Origin: Paludibacteraceae bacterium
Lineage (GTDB): Bacteria; Bacteroidota; Bacteroidia; Bacteroidales; Paludibacteraceae
Length of the DNA stretch: 64,000 nt
Assembly (NCBI GenBank): GCA_031292565.1
Contig: JARLGW010000012.1
Span: 1 to 64,000 of the forward strand
Direction: 5' to 3'
In this document: one piece after another, positions 17,957 to 28,148 of the stretch
Position numbering within the stretch: the first letter of the stretch is position 1
Layout of the letters: every line of letters begins with the position of its first letter
Made by a program: the position numbers and the translations under genes
The notes under the pieces: generated by a model
What the model saw: only the letters and a program-made list of their open reading frames with translations
Told to the model about the DNA's origin: nothing
Database searches by the model: none

Positions 17957-17976
17957 TTTTTACGAATGTATGGTTT

Positions 17977-20721
17977 ATGATAAAACGCTACCTGCTCTTC
18001 CTCTCAGTTTTTCTCTTCTGCTTTATTTGGTGGAATCCGGTGGTTGCACAGTCAATTACCGTATCAGTCAACCCTTGGAATACACTACCGAAATTAAAAA
18101 CAGCGTATCAGCAAAAGCTCTATTTGCATTTTGATAAACCTTATTATGCTGCCGGCGAACGGATGTGGTTTAGAGCCTACTTGCTTAATGCAGGCACCAA
18201 TATGCAGGACACTACCTATACCCCCGTTTACGTGGAGCTTACCAATAGTCGGGACTCCATTATCTCAAGAAAAAAGCTACAATGCCTTGACGGATGCTAC
18301 AGCGGAAGCTTCGCGCTACATGAATTGCTTCCCGAAGGGATATATCAGGTAAGAGCCTACACTAACTGGATGCGCAATGCAGGAAACGGTTATTTTTATC
18401 ACCGCCAGTCTTTTATAGGCAACAGCATCTCCAGTCAAATAAAATCCACGATTCAATTCACCTTTCAAAGCTCGAAAAAAGCACAGGCAGAAATAAAGTT
18501 TGTTCAGAACAATGCCCCTTTTGCCCGAAAAAACGTGCGATATTATATTCAAACTGAAGAAAAAGAAAACCCAAAAAAGAAAAAGAAAAAAGAAATCAAA
18601 ATATTATCAGCCGAAACTACGCCCAACGGAACCATAAGTATTGAGTTCAACCCCAATAAGCTTAAAGACAAAAAGCCAAGCATGACGGTTTTTTATCGCG
18701 ACTCGGCAAACGATTACCAGCGGAGTTTTGCCATCCCCGGCAAGAATGATTTCGATGTTCAGATTTTTCCCGAAGGAGGTTCCATCATACAGGGCATGAC
18801 CAATTGCGTGGGCTTCAAAGCCATTGGATCAAACGGGTTGGGTATCGACGTGGATGGTACGCTGTTCGACAACGACGATAAAAAGATCAGCGATTTTAAG
18901 AGTACTCACTTAGGCATGGGCAAATTCTGCTATTACCCTGATGAGACGCATCGGTATTACGTGGTTTTCAAAACACAGAACGGAGAAGTAAAAAAAATAA
19001 ACATGCCCCGAACGGAGAAAGAAGGTTTCGCGCTGGCTGCCGTACAAAAATATGGCAAACTCTTGGTAAGCATCCGCTCACCCAAAGGCCGAATGGTAAA
19101 CGATTCGCTCACCCTGCTGGCTCACGTACGGGGTACAGTATTCTACCGTCAGCCTATTGCCGGGTTCACCCCCGCAGTGGTATTTGATATAAAGGAAATA
19201 GAACCGGGCATTGCTCACTTTGTATTGTTGAATAAAAAAGGAGAAGCCATTTCGGAGCGACTGGTGTTTATCAGGTCAACTCATGCACAGCCTAATTTCT
19301 CTGTCGATTTTTTCAACCCCGTTAATATCAAGCGTGATAAAGTAACCTGCGTGTTTCAAGTAAAAGATTTTGAGGGGAAACCGATAAATAACGGAACCTT
19401 TTCGGTTGCCATTACCGATGCTAACGTGGTGCAATCGGATAGCACAAACGAAAACATTTACTGCTCACTGCTGGTTAGTTCGGATTTAAAAGGCTTTATT
19501 GAAAAGTCCGGACTTTATTTCGACCCTAGATGTAAAAATGCGAACGAGGGATTAGATTTGCTTATGCTCACGCAAGGATGGCGGCGATTTGACATAAGCA
19601 AAGCGGCTAAAGGAGAAATTGACGTTCCTGAGTTTAACATGGAAAAAGTGTATGACGTGAGCGGACAGGTAAATGCGGGTAAACCCGAAAAGCCATTGAA
19701 AGGAATACAAGTACTGGCTTACGCTCCAAATATAGGTTATTTAAACAGCACGGAAACGGACACGGAAGGCTTTTTCTTCTTCAAAAATCTGGCATTCCCC
19801 GAAAACACACAATTTACCATTCAAGCCCGACGGAAGAAAGGTGTGAAAGAGGACGTGAATATATTGATTGACAGGCAGGAATTCCCTGAAACCGAAGGTA
19901 CTATTTTCCCAGCAGAGGCAGTAACCACGATAACGGACACCTACCTGCAAGCTGCCAACGAAAAATATTATTATGAAAATGGAACCCGCACCGTGTACTC
20001 AAAAACAAGAGAGCTATTAGCCTACACGCCCGAAAAACAGGTGGAGGAAACTTTCGACCCCGATTACTATTATAGCAATGAAGAATTTGCAATAGAAGGC
20101 ATTCCATTACAGAACATGAATTGCGAAGATGTTACTTCCCTGTTGAAAAAACTTCCAGGGCTTGAAAACTGGAATGAAAACACACAACCTAAAACAAGCA
20201 CAAACGGCAACCCTCACGAAGAGATAATTGTCGGCCCGAAATTCGCCATCGACGGAAATATTTATTCTTTCAATGAGGTTAAGAATATCAAGGTAAACGA
20301 TTTAGAATCGGTTCAAATTTCACATTCCAAGTTCAGTAAGGATAAAAAAGACCCGTTGAGCAATACGCTTGTAAAATTAAACTTTAAAGAAAACAACCCG
20401 CTTTCGGCAACTGCGGACAAACAAAAAGTGGCCACCACCATGCCTCTTGGGTATGCTTCAAACGTGTTGTTCTACGAACCGAAATATGAATTTTTCAGCG
20501 TGAAGGAAAGAGCAATGCCCGATTTACGCAGCACCATAAGTTGGATACCCAATATACACACGGGAACCACAGGCAAAGGAATATTTTCTTTCTACATGGC
20601 CGACAAAATATCCATTTACAATATTGTAATAGAAGGTATTTCAAAGTCAGGCGAGCCCTGCCGGTTTGAAGGGAAACGCATGCTATTCTACAAAGATAAG
20701 ATGCAAGTTGTAGGGCCATAA
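17977..20721 (+). CDS. Large MG2/plug-domain envelope protein, paralogue 1
   Basis: A 914-residue exported protein with a signal peptide (LLFLSVFLFCFIWWNPVVAQ). The N-terminal part resembles the MG2 domain of alpha-2-macroglobulin-type proteins (KLYLHFDKPYYAAGERMWFR, then VYVELTN and VRAYTNWMRN). Later come a carboxypeptidase-regulatory-like segment (about 580-640) and a plug-like stretch (FAIDGNIYSFNEVKNIKVND, about 760-790) as in TonB receptors, but no barrel follows. The C-terminus MPDLRSTISWIPN to FYMADKISIYNIVIEGI is shared with paralogue 2. No thioester CxEQ motif is present. A lysine run (KKKKKK) sits near residue 200. The frame is open from 17857, but the promoter and signal peptide fix the ATG at 17977. 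Function unknown; probably outer membrane or periplasm. Confidence 0.8.
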   Translation: MIKRYLLFLSVFLFCFIWWNPVVAQSITVSVNPWNTLPKLKTAYQQKLYLHFDKPYYAAGERMWFRAYLLNAGTNMQDTTYTPVYVELTNSRDSIISRKKLQCLDGCYSGSFALHELLPEGIYQVRAYTNWMRNAGNGYFYHRQSFIGNSISSQIKSTIQFTFQSSKKAQAEIKFVQNNAPFARKNVRYYIQTEEKENPKKKKKKEIKILSAETTPNGTISIEFNPNKLKDKKPSMTVFYRDSANDYQRSFAIPGKNDFDVQIFPEGGSIIQGMTNCVGFKAIGSNGLGIDVDGTLFDNDDKKISDFKSTHLGMGKFCYYPDETHRYYVVFKTQNGEVKKINMPRTEKEGFALAAVQKYGKLLVSIRSPKGRMVNDSLTLLAHVRGTVFYRQPIAGFTPAVVFDIKEIEPGIAHFVLLNKKGEAISERLVFIRSTHAQPNFSVDFFNPVNIKRDKVTCVFQVKDFEGKPINNGTFSVAITDANVVQSDSTNENIYCSLLVSSDLKGFIEKSGLYFDPRCKNANEGLDLLMLTQGWRRFDISKAAKGEIDVPEFNMEKVYDVSGQVNAGKPEKPLKGIQVLAYAPNIGYLNSTETDTEGFFFFKNLAFPENTQFTIQARRKKGVKEDVNILIDRQEFPETEGTIFPAEAVTTITDTYLQAANEKYYYENGTRTVYSKTRELLAYTPEKQVEETFDPDYYYSNEEFAIEGIPLQNMNCEDVTSLLKKLPGLENWNENTQPKTSTNGNPHEEIIVGPKFAIDGNIYSFNEVKNIKVNDLESVQISHSKFSKDKKDPLSNTLVKLNFKENNPLSATADKQKVATTMPLGYASNVLFYEPKYEFFSVKERAMPDLRSTISWIPNIHTGTTGKGIFSFYMADKISIYNIVIEGISKSGEPCRFEGKRMLFYKDKMQVVGP

Positions 20722-20735
20722 TATTTCAAGCCTTT

Positions 20736-20768
20736 CCTAAATTTCTCCAAAATCAATTTCTATTTTTG
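20736..20768 (+). promoter_or_regulatory. Shared regulatory element plus -7 upstream of the response regulator
   Basis: CCTAAATTTCT followed by CCAAAA, TCAATTTC and the -7 TATTTTTG (20761-20768). The element starts 25 bases before the -7. The same sequence, with identical spacing, occurs upstream of the TonB receptor gene at 22720-22752. AT-rich half-sites spaced about 10-11 bases would suit an OmpR-type dimer. The -7 lies only 12 bases before the ATG at 20780, so the leader is very short. Confidence 0.65.
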
Positions 20769-20779
20769 ACAAAAAAAAG

Positions 20780-21460
20780 ATGAAAATCTTACTGGTAGAA
20801 GACGAGAAAAACTTACGCGCAACCATTATCAGCTTTTTAAAGGAAGAAGGCTACTGCTGCGAACAAGCTGACACCATCGGCCTGGCTTTGGAAAAACTAA
20901 GCCTCTACGAATATGATTGCCTGTTGTTAGATATAGGCCTGCCGGATGGAAATGGCCTCGACCTGATACAAAAGCTAAAAACAGAACATCCCGAAACGGG
21001 TATCATTGTTATTTCAGCCAAAAACTCTCTTGAGGACAAAGTTACTGGACTGGATCTTGGGGCCGACGATTATATAGCCAAACCTTTTAACCTAACCGAA
21101 CTCAACTCGAGGATTAAATCTATTTTCCGTAGAATAAAATTTGGAGGAAAAAAAGAAATCGTAATAGACTGTTTGCACATTTTCCCTGAAAATAGGCAGG
21201 TTTTTGTATATGGACAATTAATTGTTCTTACGAAGAAAGAATTTGATTTGCTTATTTATTTTATTTCAAACCCACAACGGGTATTAACTAAAGAAGCTAT
21301 CGCGGAGCATCTTTGGGGAGATTTTGCCGACTCTGTCGATTCATTCGATTTTGTTTATTCACAAATTAAAAACCTCCGACACAAGTTACTCGAAAAAACG
21401 GGTATCGACTACATTCAAAACATATATGCTTCTGGCTATTCATTCAACCCAAATAAGTAA
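20780..21460 (+). CDS. OmpR-family response regulator
   Basis: A 226-residue regulator with a complete receiver domain (VEDEKNLRA acid pocket, acceptor D51 in LLLDIGLPDGNG, switch S79, K101 in DDYIAKPF). A winged-helix DNA-binding domain follows (about 130-224; LTKKEFDLLIYFISNPQRV, then AEHLWG and YIQNIYASGYSF). It is paired with the histidine kinase gene 4 bases downstream. By position and the shared upstream element it probably activates or represses its own operon and the TonB receptor gene. Confidence 0.93.
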   Translation: MKILLVEDEKNLRATIISFLKEEGYCCEQADTIGLALEKLSLYEYDCLLLDIGLPDGNGLDLIQKLKTEHPETGIIVISAKNSLEDKVTGLDLGADDYIAKPFNLTELNSRIKSIFRRIKFGGKKEIVIDCLHIFPENRQVFVYGQLIVLTKKEFDLLIYFISNPQRVLTKEAIAEHLWGDFADSVDSFDFVYSQIKNLRHKLLEKTGIDYIQNIYASGYSFNPNK

Positions 21461-21464
21461 ACGC

Positions 21465-22724
21465 ATGAAGCTTCAAATCAAAATAAATTATCGTTTTCTT
21501 ATCCTGTTGTTGGGAATATTTATTAGTGCCGGAGTTGCTTTATTTTTAGCATTAGGTTATGTTGTAAACGAAAATTTGGATGAAGTACTCAACCATCGGA
21601 AGAAAGATATACACAAAACATTGCAGCTACATCCTTCCATCGAATCTATTAGCGACTCGTTGGACAAAACAATAGAGATTGAGCCTACGCCAAAAGCATT
21701 CAAAAAAATAAAATCGGACACATTGATGTACGATTTGCACGAAAAAGAGAGGGTTAATTTCCGTAAACTAGTTTACGTGGAAAAAATAGGCAATGTATAT
21801 TACAGAATCAGCCTGATTAGCTCTAAGCTGGAAAGAGAAGACTTGGTCGAAATGATTTTTTATTTTATGCTTGGGCTGTTTACGCTGATTGTACTTGTAT
21901 TATTTTTTCTAAATCGGTGGCTTTCAAACTCTATATGGAAGCCTTTCTACAAAATCATTGCACTGCTAGAGTCGTTCAACATAGGTCAAAAAACAGAAAT
22001 TAAATTCCCTATCAGTGATATCTATGAATTCGAACAGCTCAGTAAATCCCTCAAAATAATGATGCAAAAAGCACAATCGGATTTCAATAATTTGAAAGAA
22101 TTTACCGAAAATGCCTCGCACGAAATTCAAACGCCGATGGCCGTGATACAATCTAAACTCGAATCGGTGTTGCAAGACAAAAATCTAACTACAAAGCAAT
22201 ACAAGCAGGTGCAAATTGCATACGAATCCGCTTTACACCTTTCAAAACTCAACGAAGCACTGTTACTGTTGGCTAAAATTGAAAACGGCCAATTTCCTGA
22301 AACAAAAGACATAAATCTATGCGAATTAATACAAGAACGACTGGAATTTATAGACGAATTGATTGCCTTCAAAAAAATAGACATTGTATTGGATATTAAG
22401 CAAGCTTACATTGTAAAATTAAACCCCTATTTAGCCGAAATACTCATTAACAACCTACTGGGCAATGCCATCAAACACAACGTGGACGGCGGACAAATTT
22501 ACATTAGCTCCAAGACACAGCAATTTATCATTTCAAACACCGGGAATGTGTTAACAATTGCTCCCGAAAAGCTTTTCCAACGATTTACCAAGCATCACAC
22601 GGACAGCGAATCTACCGGCTTGGGACTGGCTATTGCATTTGAAATTTGCAAAAAATCAGGGCTCGACCTACAATACAAGTACCAGAACGGACTTCATTGT
22701 CTAATAATTGGCTTTAATTCCTAA
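21465..22724 (+). CDS. Sensor histidine kinase
   Basis: A 419-residue inner-membrane kinase. A first membrane span (FLILLLGIFISAGVALFLALGYVV) and a second near residues 130-155 (FYFMLGLFTLIVLVLFFL) enclose a short periplasmic sensor region of about 95 residues. The H box is ENASHEIQTPMAVIQ (about H219), the N box NNLLGNAIKHN and the G box TGLGLAIAFEICKKSG. The open frame extends upstream within the regulator gene, but the ATG at 21465, 4 bases after the regulator stop, starts a proper membrane anchor. Its last bases overlap the regulatory element of the next gene. Confidence 0.93.
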   Translation: MKLQIKINYRFLILLLGIFISAGVALFLALGYVVNENLDEVLNHRKKDIHKTLQLHPSIESISDSLDKTIEIEPTPKAFKKIKSDTLMYDLHEKERVNFRKLVYVEKIGNVYYRISLISSKLEREDLVEMIFYFMLGLFTLIVLVLFFLNRWLSNSIWKPFYKIIALLESFNIGQKTEIKFPISDIYEFEQLSKSLKIMMQKAQSDFNNLKEFTENASHEIQTPMAVIQSKLESVLQDKNLTTKQYKQVQIAYESALHLSKLNEALLLLAKIENGQFPETKDINLCELIQERLEFIDELIAFKKIDIVLDIKQAYIVKLNPYLAEILINNLLGNAIKHNVDGGQIYISSKTQQFIISNTGNVLTIAPEKLFQRFTKHHTDSESTGLGLAIAFEICKKSGLDLQYKYQNGLHCLIIGFNS

Positions 22725-22752
22725 ATTTCTACCAAATTCAATTTTACTTTTG
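22720..22752 (+). promoter_or_regulatory. Shared regulatory element plus -7 upstream of the TonB receptor
   Basis: CCTAAATTTCT, ACCAAATTC, AATTT and the -7 TACTTTTG (22745-22752). It is nearly identical to the element at 20736-20768 and keeps the 25-base distance to the -7. The first five bases overlap the end of the kinase gene, including its stop codon. Confidence 0.65.
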
Positions 22753-22789
22753 GGCTTTCATCCATAAAAAACATTTTTTTTATTACATC

Positions 22790-25210
22790 ATGCAAAAATC
22801 AATCGCCATCGGTTTACTACTGATTTTCAGCAGTATTGCGGTCTTTTCCCAAAAACAAAATGCAGGAATTATCAAAGGCATAATCGTTGAAAAGTCCACC
22901 CGTAAACCACTTGAATTTGCCAACATTTCTCTGAAAAATGTAAAAGACAGCAGTTTTTTTCGGGGCACCGTAACCGATCAGGATGGAAAATTTCAAATCG
23001 AAAATCTGCCTTACGGTGAATACAAATTATGTTATAGCTTCATTGGCTTTAACAACACTGTTTGTGCTTCGATAATTTCCCTCAATGAAAAACAAAGCAT
23101 AAAAGACCTTGGAAAACTTTCTATATCCGAATCAACCAATACATTGAACCAAGTGGAAGTTGTCGGCCAAAAATCAACATTTGTCAATTCCATCGACCGA
23201 AAAACTTTTAATATCGGACAGGATTTGTTGAGCAAATCGTCATCTATCAGCGACTTAATGCAAAGCATCCCTTCCATGCAAGTGGATGTAGATGGCAATG
23301 TAAGTTTAAGAGGATCAGACAACGTTACGATATTAATAGATGGCAAACCGTCGTCCATGATGAAACTGAACAGTGCCGCAGCTCTTCAACAAATTCCAGC
23401 GGGTAACGTGGAAAAAATAGAAATAATTACGAACCCTTCGGCAAAGTACAAACCCGATGGCACAGCCGGAATTATAAATATTGTTTTGAAAAAAAACAAA
23501 GGGCTGGGATTGAATGGCAATATTACTGCCAACGTGGGAAACGATAGCCGATACAATATTAACGGGCTTGTAAATTACAACACCGGAAAAATAAACATCT
23601 TCGGCAGCTATGGTTTTAAAAAAGATTACCGTAACAGGAAAAACGAAATAACAACAAGGACTTACGACAACTTTGGTTTAAAGAACTATTCGGAAAACAA
23701 TGCGAAATCGAATACTGATGTGTATTATAATTTAGTAAACCTAGGTATAGATTATAAAATTAACGAAAACAATAAAGTGGGCATTTCCGGGAACGGTAAT
23801 TTCCGTTTCCAACGGCAAGAAAATTATTCAAATTATTTGCTGGAGGATAGCTTGCAAACTGTTACTTCCAACTACGATCGCAACCGCTACCTGCCGGAAT
23901 CAGAATCGGATTTAGACTTTTCAGGATACTATCAACATACATTCGACAAAGAAGGACAAGAATTAAATATTAATTTCAGCAGTTCGTTAACCACCGAAAA
24001 AGAAGATAACTATTATACCAATATTTATCAGGTTCCGGCAGGAGTAGTGTCCTACGACAACATGTTTTACCACCATACCAACGATGAAAATCAACTGTCG
24101 ATAGAATACACCAAACCATTTTCGAAAGATAAAAAACTAGAATGCGGTTATCAATTGGATAATTTCAACAACAATTTGAATTTACTCCGCGACACGCTAA
24201 ACATGGCAACTGACAATTGGGAAGAAGATCCTTTACGCACCAATCGTTTTATTCGCACAGAATATACCCATGTAATCTATGCCACATTTGAACAAGAATT
24301 TAAGAAATTCTCTTATTTGATAGGCTTGCGTGGTGAACAAACCTACACAAAAGCAAACTTGCAAAGCAAAGATTCGGTTATTCTTAGCCAATACACCCGC
24401 ATATACCCCACGCTGCATTTATCTTATAAATTGACGGACAAACATACGTTACAGTTAAACTATAGCCATAGAATACGCCGGCCGGAGGACGAAGAACTAA
24501 ATCCGTTTCCCGAATATCAGGACATGCAAAATATTCGTGTAGGGAATCCGACCCTGAAACCCGAAGATATTCATTCTGTAGAATTAGACTATCAATTCAA
24601 AAAGGCCGAAACTAATTTTTTGTCAACCTTGTATTATCGATACAACTACAACAGTATAACAAAAATTGTAACCAATACCGGCAATAATGTATTTGTAACT
24701 TCGCTTGAAAATATTTCCAAGAACGAATCGTCAGGACTTGAGCTGGTGTTTACTACAAGCATCAGAAAATGGGCAAATATAAGTATCTCCGAAAACACCT
24801 TTTACAATACCATTGATGCTTCGGAACTTGGTTTTAGCAACAGCAAATCGAACATTTCGTTATCGGCCAACGGCAGTGTCAGTTTTAACTTAACAAAAAG
24901 CACTACCTGGCAAATATCGGGCAATTACTCCGGCGAAAAATTAACGCCACAAGGAAAAAGTTTACCAATTTTTGTCTTAAATAGTGGAATAAAACAAGAA
25001 TTGCTTAAAAGAAAATTAACAATTACACTTTCCGCTTCTAACATTTTCAATTCGACCAATAACATATTACTGATAGACACACCCGAACTCTATCGTAAAG
25101 AATCGCGGAAGCGTTTGGATCAGGCATTATACATAGGCTTAAGTTACTCTTTCGGCAATTCATCTAAAAAACAAAAAGAAAACGGAATAAAATATGACAA
25201 TCAATTTTAA
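22790..25210 (+). CDS. TonB-dependent outer-membrane receptor (OMP_b-brl_3 type)
   Basis: An 806-residue outer-membrane protein. Order of parts: signal peptide (IAIGLLLIFSSIAVFSQ), carboxypeptidase-regulatory-like domain (about 25-105; GIIVEKSTRKPLEFANISLK), plug domain (about 130-225; MQSIPSMQVDVDGNVSLRGS, then ILIDGKPSSMM and NPSAKYKPDGTAGIINI) and a large barrel ending in GLSYSFGNS. The C-terminal motif NYSHRIRRPEDEELNPFPEY is typical of this subfamily, often found beside two-component systems in Bacteroidota. The substrate is not known. It has its own promoter and the regulator's putative site upstream, and is followed by an AT-rich hairpin. Confidence 0.92.
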   Translation: MQKSIAIGLLLIFSSIAVFSQKQNAGIIKGIIVEKSTRKPLEFANISLKNVKDSSFFRGTVTDQDGKFQIENLPYGEYKLCYSFIGFNNTVCASIISLNEKQSIKDLGKLSISESTNTLNQVEVVGQKSTFVNSIDRKTFNIGQDLLSKSSSISDLMQSIPSMQVDVDGNVSLRGSDNVTILIDGKPSSMMKLNSAAALQQIPAGNVEKIEIITNPSAKYKPDGTAGIINIVLKKNKGLGLNGNITANVGNDSRYNINGLVNYNTGKINIFGSYGFKKDYRNRKNEITTRTYDNFGLKNYSENNAKSNTDVYYNLVNLGIDYKINENNKVGISGNGNFRFQRQENYSNYLLEDSLQTVTSNYDRNRYLPESESDLDFSGYYQHTFDKEGQELNINFSSSLTTEKEDNYYTNIYQVPAGVVSYDNMFYHHTNDENQLSIEYTKPFSKDKKLECGYQLDNFNNNLNLLRDTLNMATDNWEEDPLRTNRFIRTEYTHVIYATFEQEFKKFSYLIGLRGEQTYTKANLQSKDSVILSQYTRIYPTLHLSYKLTDKHTLQLNYSHRIRRPEDEELNPFPEYQDMQNIRVGNPTLKPEDIHSVELDYQFKKAETNFLSTLYYRYNYNSITKIVTNTGNNVFVTSLENISKNESSGLELVFTTSIRKWANISISENTFYNTIDASELGFSNSKSNISLSANGSVSFNLTKSTTWQISGNYSGEKLTPQGKSLPIFVLNSGIKQELLKRKLTITLSASNIFNSTNNILLIDTPELYRKESRKRLDQALYIGLSYSFGNSSKKQKENGIKYDNQF

Positions 25211-25318
25211 AAACTCTTATATATATAAACAAACACTGTTTAAAAAAAAATTATATACATATCGTTAAACAATAACATCAGATTCTCTAATGTCTTTCTA
25301 ATCTCTCTTTAATATTAG

Positions 25319-25352
25319 TCTAATAATCTCATTATTAGAGTTTTAGTTTTTT
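25319..25352 (+). terminator. AT-rich hairpin, probable terminator after the TonB receptor
   Basis: A perfect 9-bp stem (TCTAATAAT / ATTATTAGA) around a CTC loop, followed by a T-rich run. Low GC makes it weaker than the other terminators; a regulatory site is an alternative. Confidence 0.45.
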
Positions 25353-25442: not shown

Positions 25443-28148
25443 ATGAATAAAGTTTACAGATTAATATTAAGCGTTGCAGCTTATTTATTATTAGGTGCAG
25501 GCTTATTTGCACAAAATCAGACAACACCGCAGGACATTTGGAACGGGATGCCTCGGTTTAAAACCTTACCGCAAGAAAAGCTCTACTTGCACTTTGATAA
25601 ACCATGTTACGTGGCAGGCGACCGCATGTGGTTCCGTGCCTACTTGGTTAATGCCAACACCCACCAGCCCGACACTGCCAGTTGTGCCGTGTACGTGGAA
25701 CTAACTAATAGTTGCGATTCTCTTGTCCGTCGTGTAAAAATTCCTTGCCAAAAAGGCGTGTATTCAGGTAGCATCCTGCTCAACGAAGAATCGCCCGAAG
25801 GTGTGTACACCGTAAGGGCTTATACCAATTGGATGCAAAATATTGGAAACGACTTTTTTTATCACAAACAAATATATATCGGCAACAGTATTTCGAGTAA
25901 AGTGAAATCGAGCATAAGCTATTCATTCGTGAATGAGAAAAAAATTGCCGCCGATATTTACTTCTCCCAACAAGGCTCCCCTCTGGCTTCTAAAAAAATG
26001 ACCTATTATTTGAATCTAAGCGGAAAAAACAAAAGCCCGAAAATTGTTACAACCAATGTGCAAGGGAAAATACACGTGGAATACAACCCTCAGCAAATAG
26101 ACATAAAGAAGCCTATTCTACATGTTACCTATCAGGAAAATATGAGCAAATACGATAGAAATTATATTCTTCCAGCCAAAAACAATTTCGATGTTCAATT
26201 CTTTCCCGAAGGGGGCGAACTAATTTCGGGAGCCAGTAACTGCATCGCGTTCAAAGCTATTCAATTCAACGGCTTTTCCACGGAAATAAAAGGTACGGTA
26301 TTCGACAACACAAATAACAAAATAAGCGAATTCAAAAGCTCCCACTTAGGCATGGGAAAATTCTATTTATTGCCCGAAAAAACGAAGAAATATTATGCCA
26401 TCGTGGAAAACATATCGGGTGGAGACAAAAAACGGATAGACCTACCTACTGTTAAACAACAGGGTACTGCCTTAGAAGCCAGTTTCCATAACAATAAAAT
26501 TCATATTGGTATAAAACACGATAACTCTCAAGATTCTCTCTTTTTACTTGCACACAGCAGAGGCTCTATTTTTTACAACAAAGCTATTACCGATTTAAAC
26601 GAGGCTGTTGTTTTCAACCCTCAGGAATTACGTCCCGGAATTATAAGCTTTTTGTTACTAAATAAAAACAATGAACCTATTTCTGAACGGCTTGTGTTTA
26701 TTAAGCCACAAAAAGCAGCTTCGTCAGCTTTACAATTTGATAAGCCCGACTATGAATCACGCGAAAAAGTGAACTGCGCAGTCCATGTAACGGATGCCCA
26801 AGGAAATCCCGCATCGGGAAGCTTCTCGGTAGCAACTACCGATGCCAGCGATGTTGAATTAGATTCGTTGGGTGAAAATATTACCAACACCTTATTACTT
26901 AGTTCCGATTTGAAAGGATATATTGAAAACCCAAATCAATATTTCGACCCGAATTTCAAACAGGGGGACGAAGCTTTGGATGTGTTGATGATGACTCAAG
27001 GTTGGAAACGATTTAACGTAAGCAGCCTACTAAAAGGAGACAAAGAAACTGCTACGGACTTTTTGGAAAAAGGTCAGGCCATATCGGGTTCAATTAAAGC
27101 CGGACTACTTAACAAACGCGAAAAAGGCACCACAATGACCATGCTGGCTCCAAGCATCAAATATTTCGGCATGCAAGAAACCGATGAAAATGGAAAATTT
27201 ATGTTCGGTGGATTTTCATTCCCCGATAGCACAAAATTCACCATTCAAGCAAAAAGGAAACGGGGTATAAAAGATGCTGTTGAAATAACACTGGATCAAG
27301 ATACATTCCCCGCAATACAGGAAGAAATTATTCGTCCTGAAAAAGCAGTAGCAGCGAATGATAACCAATTGGAAACGGCAAGCGAAAAATTCATCTACGA
27401 AAATGGAATGTTTAATTTCAATCTAAAAGCTGTTGAAGTTGTTGCAAGACGTGAAGTGGAAACAGAAACCATGATAACAGACCCGAATTATTTAATGAGT
27501 ACGGAACAGTATGAACTTTCGGGTAATAATCTTAACCGATTTAAAGACCAACCTTTCAGCATGCTGATAAAATCGTTACCAGGCTTGCAAAATTGGAACG
27601 AAGGAATTAACGCTAACTCCGATGCCCAAATCTATGGCGACAGCCAAACGGTGAACGACGACCCTGGACCTCACTTTGCTTGGGACGGAAATATCTACTC
27701 TTACACTGATGTGGAACGCATTGACGTGAACGACTTACTTTCGGTTCAGGTACTTCGCTCCAACATGGCTATCGTTTCGCGTAATCATAGTTCGATGGAC
27801 GATATTTTAATCGTGTTGAACTTCAAGAAAGACAGAAATATTTTCTCAAGCCGACCAAAGCCGGACAATATTGCTACTATTATGCCATTAGGTTATGCAA
27901 AGAGTGTAACTTTTTATCAACCTAAATATGACGTTGATTCTATAAGAAAGAAATCGACACCCGATTTAAGAAGCACTATTTGCTGGCTACCCGAACTGAA
28001 AACCGATGCTAACGGCAATGGATCTTTTTGGTTCTACACGGCAGACAGAGCATCAAAATATAATATTGTAGTGGAGGGCGTTTTACCTAACGGAGAAACC
28101 TGCCACACAGAGGTTAAGAAAATATTATTCAAAAACACTTCTAAGTAA
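25443..28148 (+). CDS. Large MG2/plug-domain envelope protein, paralogue 2
   Basis: A 901-residue exported protein, similar along its whole length to the 17977-20721 product. Shared landmarks are WNGMPRFKTLPQEKLYLHFD, VAGDRMWFRAYLVNA, YTNWMQNIGNDFFYHKQIYI, the plug-like FAWDGNIYSYTDVERIDVND and the C-terminal TPDLRSTICWLPEL. The signal peptide is YRLILSVAAYLLLGAGLFAQ. The upstream open frame to 25371 is discarded because the -7 element at 25409 lies inside it. The family is known in Bacteroidota but not characterised; no thioester motif and no barrel are visible. Together the two copies bracket the two-component system and receptor. Confidence 0.8.
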   Translation: MNKVYRLILSVAAYLLLGAGLFAQNQTTPQDIWNGMPRFKTLPQEKLYLHFDKPCYVAGDRMWFRAYLVNANTHQPDTASCAVYVELTNSCDSLVRRVKIPCQKGVYSGSILLNEESPEGVYTVRAYTNWMQNIGNDFFYHKQIYIGNSISSKVKSSISYSFVNEKKIAADIYFSQQGSPLASKKMTYYLNLSGKNKSPKIVTTNVQGKIHVEYNPQQIDIKKPILHVTYQENMSKYDRNYILPAKNNFDVQFFPEGGELISGASNCIAFKAIQFNGFSTEIKGTVFDNTNNKISEFKSSHLGMGKFYLLPEKTKKYYAIVENISGGDKKRIDLPTVKQQGTALEASFHNNKIHIGIKHDNSQDSLFLLAHSRGSIFYNKAITDLNEAVVFNPQELRPGIISFLLLNKNNEPISERLVFIKPQKAASSALQFDKPDYESREKVNCAVHVTDAQGNPASGSFSVATTDASDVELDSLGENITNTLLLSSDLKGYIENPNQYFDPNFKQGDEALDVLMMTQGWKRFNVSSLLKGDKETATDFLEKGQAISGSIKAGLLNKREKGTTMTMLAPSIKYFGMQETDENGKFMFGGFSFPDSTKFTIQAKRKRGIKDAVEITLDQDTFPAIQEEIIRPEKAVAANDNQLETASEKFIYENGMFNFNLKAVEVVARREVETETMITDPNYLMSTEQYELSGNNLNRFKDQPFSMLIKSLPGLQNWNEGINANSDAQIYGDSQTVNDDPGPHFAWDGNIYSYTDVERIDVNDLLSVQVLRSNMAIVSRNHSSMDDILIVLNFKKDRNIFSSRPKPDNIATIMPLGYAKSVTFYQPKYDVDSIRKKSTPDLRSTICWLPELKTDANGNGSFWFYTADRASKYNIVVEGVLPNGETCHTEVKKILFKNTSK

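Follow-up and report, generated by a model that had tools for sequence, protein, structure and literature searches.

Two short, closely matching DNA elements in a 64,000-nucleotide window from a Paludibacteraceae bacterium (the window being the whole stretch of DNA analysed) are very probably docking sites for the OmpR/PhoB-family response regulator (RR) encoded beside them, positioned to control the regulator's own genes and the gene for an outer-membrane receptor. Judging from sequence comparisons, we put the probability that this regulator binds both operators, and thereby activates both the RR-kinase operon and the receptor gene, at roughly 0.78. The narrower proposition that the elements are binding sites of this regulator, whatever the mechanism of control, appears safer, and we would be surprised if it proved wrong.

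The elements belong to a cassette (Table 1) in which the RR gene starts 685 bp ahead of the kinase gene. The regulator carries a receiver domain (PF00072, 95.8 bits) and a C-terminal winged helix (PF00486, 58.5 bits), both above cut-off, and it is one of six OmpR-type regulators encoded by the window genome. It falls below the cut-off of the RprY model NF051850 (110.3 bits; cut-off 370), and is thus not a member of that group, and likewise below that of the Bacteroides-type PhoB model NF053854 (140.3 bits; cut-off 270). When the RR alignment is compared with solved structures, BasR/PmrA chains take second and third place. The order RR-kinase-receptor is also found at locus L035, where the receptor is 48% identical to that of the window. 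On either side of the cassette lies an MG2-domain gene (17974-20718 and 25443-28145), and the two paralogues share 44% identity. MG2 neighbours are missing, by reading of the open reading frame lists, at L035 and at L036 (identical in location with L007). This hints that the cassette lies between two copies of a gene that has undergone duplication.

Table 1. Genes and putative regulatory features of the RR-kinase-receptor cassette (positions in the window).
Feature	Position	Strand	Details
OmpR/PhoB-family response regulator (RR) gene; receiver + Trans_reg_C	20780..21460	+	226 aa
Sensor histidine kinase gene; HisKA/HATPase	21465..22724	+	419 aa; NCBIfam NF052314
TonB-type outer membrane receptor gene; CarboxypepD_reg, Plug, OMP_b-brl_3	22790..25210	+	806 aa; proposed target of site 2
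Site 1, 36-column motif; putative operator and promoter before RR gene	20734..20769	+	rank 1 in window, rank 1 in genome
Site 1 half-sites	20735-20742; 20746-20753	+	TCCTAAAT; TCCAAAAT
Site 1 -7 box	20761-20768	+	TATTTTTG
Site 2, 36-column motif; putative operator and promoter before receptor gene	22718..22753	+	rank 2 in window, rank 2 in genome
Site 2 half-sites	22719-22726; 22730-22737	+	TCCTAAAT; TACCAAAT
Site 2 -7 box	22745-22752	+	TACTTTTG

An initial annotation of this DNA placed the two copies at 20736-20768 and 22720-22752, each upstream of a TAnTTTTG-type -7 box and with the same 25 bases between the start of the element and the start of the box, and both the positions and the spacing are correct. 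Aligned without gaps, the copies match at 26 of 33 positions, compared with 21 of 33 for the next best non-overlapping 33-mer of the window and a maximum of 23 of 33 when the window was simulated 30 times with a first-order Markov model (one strand). The four 30-bp blocks that flank the copies match at 5, 10, 11 and 5 of 30 positions. Copy 2 overlaps the stop codon of the kinase gene (22722-22724), as had been claimed, and because this stop codon lies inside the copy, nearly the whole of it is non-coding. Just five of its bases, stop included, are coding, and constraint on the protein can be rejected as the cause of the match.

Ungapped alignment also makes visible what the earlier gapped consensus conceals, namely that each copy consists of a direct repeat with an 11-bp period, TCCTAAAT-N3-TCCAAAAT on the RR side and TCCTAAAT-N3-TACCAAAT on the receptor side, with the poorer fit in the second half-site of copy 2. 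The downstream half-site ends 7 bp upstream of the TAnnTTTG -7 box. Housekeeping promoters of Bacteroidota combine a -7 element, TAnnTTTG, with a -33 element, TTTG or TTG, located approximately 19-20 bp upstream of it. Both TATTTTTG and TACTTTTG fit this -7 consensus; a -33 TTTG or TTG at that distance is present in neither copy. By reading, TAAA or CTAA stands there instead, and the expected -33 place is occupied by the first half-site in both copies.

The same arrangement is found across Bacteroidota. A search for the kinase in 200 genomes of the family gave 38 matches at 1e-20, window genome included, and none in the three other genomes of the same genus. An alignment of 14 kinases (A1) was scanned against the contigs of named genomes, and the best 80 of 589 loci were kept, nearly all from Bacteroidota and one from Chlorobiota. 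The locus set comprised 110 loci with that of the window, seven of them lacking a usable RR start, in several of these seven cases because a contig end cuts the locus. After removal of redundancy, 89 of 103 RR-upstream and 98 of 108 kinase-downstream regions were left; the RR-upstream input was free of gene bases, and five RR starts were re-chosen by means of an N-terminal pattern.

De novo motif discovery, performed independently on the two sets, yielded the same 36-column motif, approximately TTCAGAATTTCTNCAGAATT followed by 6 bp and TAnnTTTG, with a fitted share of regions carrying it of 0.75 upstream of the RR gene and 0.48 downstream of the kinase gene; shuffled regions produced nothing comparable. 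The half-site consensus of the family is approximately TTCAGAAT, for which the window has TCCTAAAT, TCCAAAAT and TACCAAAT, and tandem half-sites about 11 bp apart, as is typical of OmpR/PhoB regulators, are found both in the de novo motifs and in an ungapped alignment of 65 sites. Each model also recognizes the other set at a threshold of >10 bits, with control windows taken from the same loci. The RR-upstream model matches 42 of 98 kinase-downstream regions (controls: 16 of 1500 windows, 8 of 980 shuffles, 0 of 98 reverse complements), and the kinase-downstream model matches 62 of 89 RR-upstream regions (8 of 1500 windows, 2 of 890 shuffles, 7 of 89 reverse complements). Among the 86 non-redundant loci in which both regions are readable, 22 have both sites, 40 the RR site alone, 14 the downstream site alone and 10 neither.

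These models find the window copies even when trained without the window locus and its closest relatives (L004-L007 and L034-L037). The held-out RR-upstream model gives the copies the two top ranks in the window (28.0 and 25.8 bits; third, 13.1 bits), and the held-out kinase-downstream model gives them 23.7 and 20.2 bits, with 14.8 bits for the third match. At L035 the downstream element keeps its first half alone, though the gene order equals that of the window. Lack of conservation at related loci, which had been named as a result that would count against the proposal, was thus not encountered, and the presence of conserved sites before the RR gene as well as after the kinase gene lends support to the original suggestion of autoregulation combined with receptor control.

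If the regulator is indeed the protein that binds, a simple sequence of events can be proposed. The kinase would phosphorylate the RR, a dimer of which would occupy both half-sites in head-to-tail orientation on a single face of the helix. The bound dimer would then recruit RNA polymerase by class II activation in the manner of PhoB and PmrA, with the direct repeat replacing the -33 element. From site 1 this would switch on the RR-kinase operon, resulting in positive autoregulation, and from site 2, at the end of the kinase gene, it would switch on the TonB-type receptor. That the sites serve activation rather than repression is deduced from their position. Specifically, the 65 aligned sites vary very little in the distance between operator and -7 box, and this spacing, together with the 11-bp direct repeat and the lack of a -33 element, fits class II activation by an OmpR-type dimer.

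The most serious competing possibility is that the RR binds and represses, its operator covering the -33 region so that RNA polymerase is blocked until a signal releases the protein. The position of the sites is by itself compatible with either direction, and HaeR of Porphyromonas gingivalis has been described as an activator or a repressor depending on the target (PMC5706477). Nevertheless, we consider repression unlikely. With no -33 TTTG or TTG seen by reading at the usual distance in either copy, these promoters look too weak to need repression, and near-constant spacing over 65 sites is what would be expected if the bound protein contacts polymerase.

Activation by the neighbouring RR presupposes that the sites are specific to it, and both the distribution and the sequence of the sites bear on this point. 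The pattern TAAATTTCTN{0,1}CCAAAN{0,2}TCAATTT matches the window genome (2,776,687 bases) exactly twice, at the two copies, and the reversed-pattern control gives no match. A profile built from the ungapped alignment of 65 sites, hand-picked from 96 listed and including the two window copies, ranks these copies first and second in the whole genome, with 25.4 and 22.6 bits. Strong unrelated copies, the outcome feared when the element was first described, do not occur. The next match scores 17.9 bits and is weak; it lies at C11:260190 (L116), 24 bases before a gene for an LptF/LptG lipopolysaccharide export permease. We do not claim it as a further member of the regulon, as it has no counterpart among the matches of three relatives.

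The site also keeps company with the kinase. Genomes G033, G092 and G120, whose kinases match best, each have just two matches at E<=0.1, the two sites of the locus, and in the three same-genus genomes without the kinase the best profile match has E=0.034. Among 61 further genomes of the family, a site is found at E<=0.01 in 25 of 31 kinase-positive and 0 of 30 kinase-negative genomes; the remaining six kinase-positive genomes have none at this level among the candidates scored. At E<=0.02 the corresponding counts are 26 of 31 and 6 of 30, the latter being weak matches. Kinase-positive genomes that contributed no site to the profile behave similarly, with a match at E<=0.01 in 15 of 19. The number of first-look candidates scored in these genome-wide searches was limited to 113-150 per genome, and weak sites could therefore have escaped notice.

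Furthermore, the sequence of the site varies together with its locus and with the DNA-binding domain of the regulator. Over the operator, site pairs from the same locus are 74% identical and pairs from different loci 62%, a difference reached in 0 of 20000 permutations (24 loci, the near-duplicates L006, L007 and L036 being left out). The difference is smaller for the -7 box (66% versus 58%; 33 of 20000 permutations), and there is no clear difference for the spacer between operator and -7 box (31% versus 26%; 1563 of 20000). When receiver distance is removed, operator distance remains correlated with the distance between DNA-binding domains, both for 63 RR sites (partial r 0.15) and for 38 downstream sites (partial r 0.30), with 0 of 2000 permutations reaching either value. 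Particular recognition regions likewise accompany particular half-sites: DNHDFVYAH (L014, L072, L103) occurs with TTCTAAAT or TTCAAAAT, and THLNNIR (L012, L018, L024) with TTTAGAAT or TTTAGATT. These permutation and correlation tests support the assignment but do not decide it, because they keep the tree only in part and shared ancestry remains. Taken with the co-occurrence of site and kinase, however, they point to the adjacent regulator, and the suggestion made at the outset that the element is this regulator's binding site is strengthened accordingly.

Could another transcription factor, such as a paralogous OmpR-type regulator, bind both sites instead? The shape of the repeat is common for the OmpR type, and the genome offers six regulators of this kind. 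We regard this as improbable, since no matching site is found in the 200 bp before the genes of the other five (best score 0.2 bits), and since sites at E<=0.01 are missing from the 30 genomes without the kinase gene. Slightly less probable still is that the element is a general or alternative promoter, either an extended -33/-7 type or one specific to a single sigma factor, rather than an operator for this RR. A TAnnTTTG-like box does accompany the element, but a promoter of this kind should hardly be confined as this one is: the genome has no third copy of similar strength, the kinase-negative relatives lack it at E<=0.01, and operator sequences vary in step with the DNA-binding domain of the regulator next to them. 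A scan with the sigma-70 consensus was uninformative (21 sites versus 16.3 in shuffles). Finally, a recent local duplication that left a functionless copy of the RR promoter where the kinase gene ends would explain two similar copies 2 kb apart, but is barely credible given that the flanks share no similarity and that a kinase-downstream site is present at 46 of 110 loci (near-duplicates included), distant relatives among them.

Under the favoured reading, in which the RR activates from both operators, the genes that follow the sites should hint at what the system controls. Pfam domains were assigned to 37 of the 43 proteins encoded after kinase-downstream sites (all except those at L005, L006, L007, L022, L023 and L062), and of these, 19 are PepSY_like (PF11396), seven have a TonB plug domain and two are outer membrane efflux proteins. 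Ten proteins, hand-picked from the 28 that follow profile matches in genomes of the family, were also scanned. Nine of them are encoded on a different contig from the kinase or at least 10 kb away, and comprise eight PepSY_like proteins and one with CarboxypepD_reg/DUF5686; the tenth is an OMP_b-brl_3 receptor whose gene adjoins the RR gene and diverges from it. Sites far from the kinase in relatives therefore mostly precede the same classes of protein as the sites at the locus. The sites at L170 and L180 precede what seem, by reading, to be other membrane transporters. At L170 (1500-1968; G139) a strong site stands before a small gene of transporter-like type, itself located upstream of the RR gene; this might account for the lack of a separate site in the RR-upstream region of L013, which comes from the same genome. 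A search for PepSY-like genes gave no matches in the window genome, and none in the control genomes either, so the negative result does not establish that this genome lacks them. Overall, the element resembles a local switch for the RR-kinase pair and one or a few envelope genes, with a receptor as the target here and most often a PepSY-like protein elsewhere.

Autoregulated OmpR-type systems with direct-repeat operators are already known as a kind. PhoB and PmrA exert class II activation as OmpR-type dimers bound to such operators. The window regulator resembles PhoB and PmrA (BasR) in being a winged-helix RR with two half-sites 11 bp apart beside a core promoter, and appears to differ, with respect to the Pho and PmrA boxes, in its TTCAGAAT-like half-site and in a core promoter of the TAnnTTTG type. 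A parallel in regulatory logic comes from the P. gingivalis system HaeSR (PG0719-PG0720), which is linked to hemin; there the promoters shifted by HaeR include its own and that of ragA, so that regulation of the system's own genes is again joined to TonB-dependent receptors (PMC3764172). We view this as a precedent and not as evidence of homology, and there is no P. gingivalis locus in the comparison because the published HaeR primer, used as a pattern, matched 0 of 393 genomes of the order. RprY of Bacteroides and P. gingivalis is likewise an OmpR-family regulator that bound its own promoter (PMC5706477), whereas the window RR, as noted, is below the RprY cut-off.

In the open literature, where large result sets were covered in part and subscription papers lay outside the search, we found no report of this operator or of such a regulon for PorY-family kinases. 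The element provides a specific, probable operator sequence, conserved across Bacteroidota, for a regulator family for which we found no published motif in that literature, and this should make targets predictable from sequence.

The identity of the kinase adds a second point of significance. It scores 443.3 bits against NF052314, 'PorY family sensor histidine kinase' (cut-off 350), with residues 2-417 of 419 aligned to positions 1-418 of 418 in the model, and all 14 kinases of alignment A1 match the same model at E<=1e-40. The window kinase is the genome's only match at E<=1e-20 (nine of 12 first-look candidates scored). It is not an orphan, a state that lies outside the definition of NF052314, since its gene directly follows that of an OmpR-type RR. 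An RR gene starts 400-1100 bp upstream of the kinase gene at 103 of the 110 loci, window included, a share biased upward because the kinase query was built from linked loci. In the loci examined, the usual neighbour of a PorY-family kinase is therefore a putative DNA-binding regulator with its own conserved operator.

Published accounts depict P. gingivalis PorY differently, as an orphan kinase (PGN_2001) assigned to the unlinked PorX (PGN_1019), whose PglZ domain has no typical DNA-binding motif (PMC4800418, PMC5005315); DNA binding by PorX is disputed (PMC4800418, PMC5005315, PMC8050853, PMC10951265). The window kinase resembles that type IX secretion-linked pair in exceeding the PorY-family cut-off, but it adjoins an OmpR-type RR, and the PorX-like gene is separate. 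This PorX-like gene (L193, contig C3 near 425843) encodes 514 aa with a PglZ domain and, by reading, a receiver-like N-terminus, and it lies on the same contig approximately 400 kb from the window kinase. The SprA gene of the type IX system is also present (L194, contig C2 near 112374). Both are found in this genome though its only close PorY-family kinase adjoins an OmpR-type regulator.

That PorY-scoring kinases have a linked, putatively DNA-binding partner in the examined loci bears on the disputed action of PorY and PorX on transcription. We speculate, with a good deal of doubt, that PorY-family kinases were ancestrally partners of this OmpR-type RR, which had its own conserved operator and governed envelope genes for PepSY-like proteins and TonB-type receptors, and that the orphan PorY of P. 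gingivalis is a remnant of that pair, rewired to, or shared with, PorX. In genomes like that of the window, one PorY-family kinase might serve the OmpR-type RR as well as PorX. If so, a shared PorY-family kinase would couple type IX secretion to the expression of envelope genes.

Three smaller observations concern the sites themselves. First, the operator at locus L043 (4276-4296), from Chryseolinea serpens, is identical to window site 1 over 21 bases, the two kinases being just 36% identical. Second, upstream of the RR genes of L014, L018, L020, L024 and L093, about 4 bases separate the end of the 36-column motif from the RR start codon, and the RR transcript would therefore be leaderless or nearly so. 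Third, the element had been described as absent upstream of the flanking MG2 genes, which holds for the full element (best nearby match 13.1 bits at 25341, a background level) but not for repeat-type units, which do precede the second MG2 gene. There, at 25286-25324, four units of the YTTAAT/TCTAAT type follow one another in exact 11-bp steps (starts 25286, 25297, 25308 and 25319), in what looks like an OmpR-type multi-repeat array with a different half-site.
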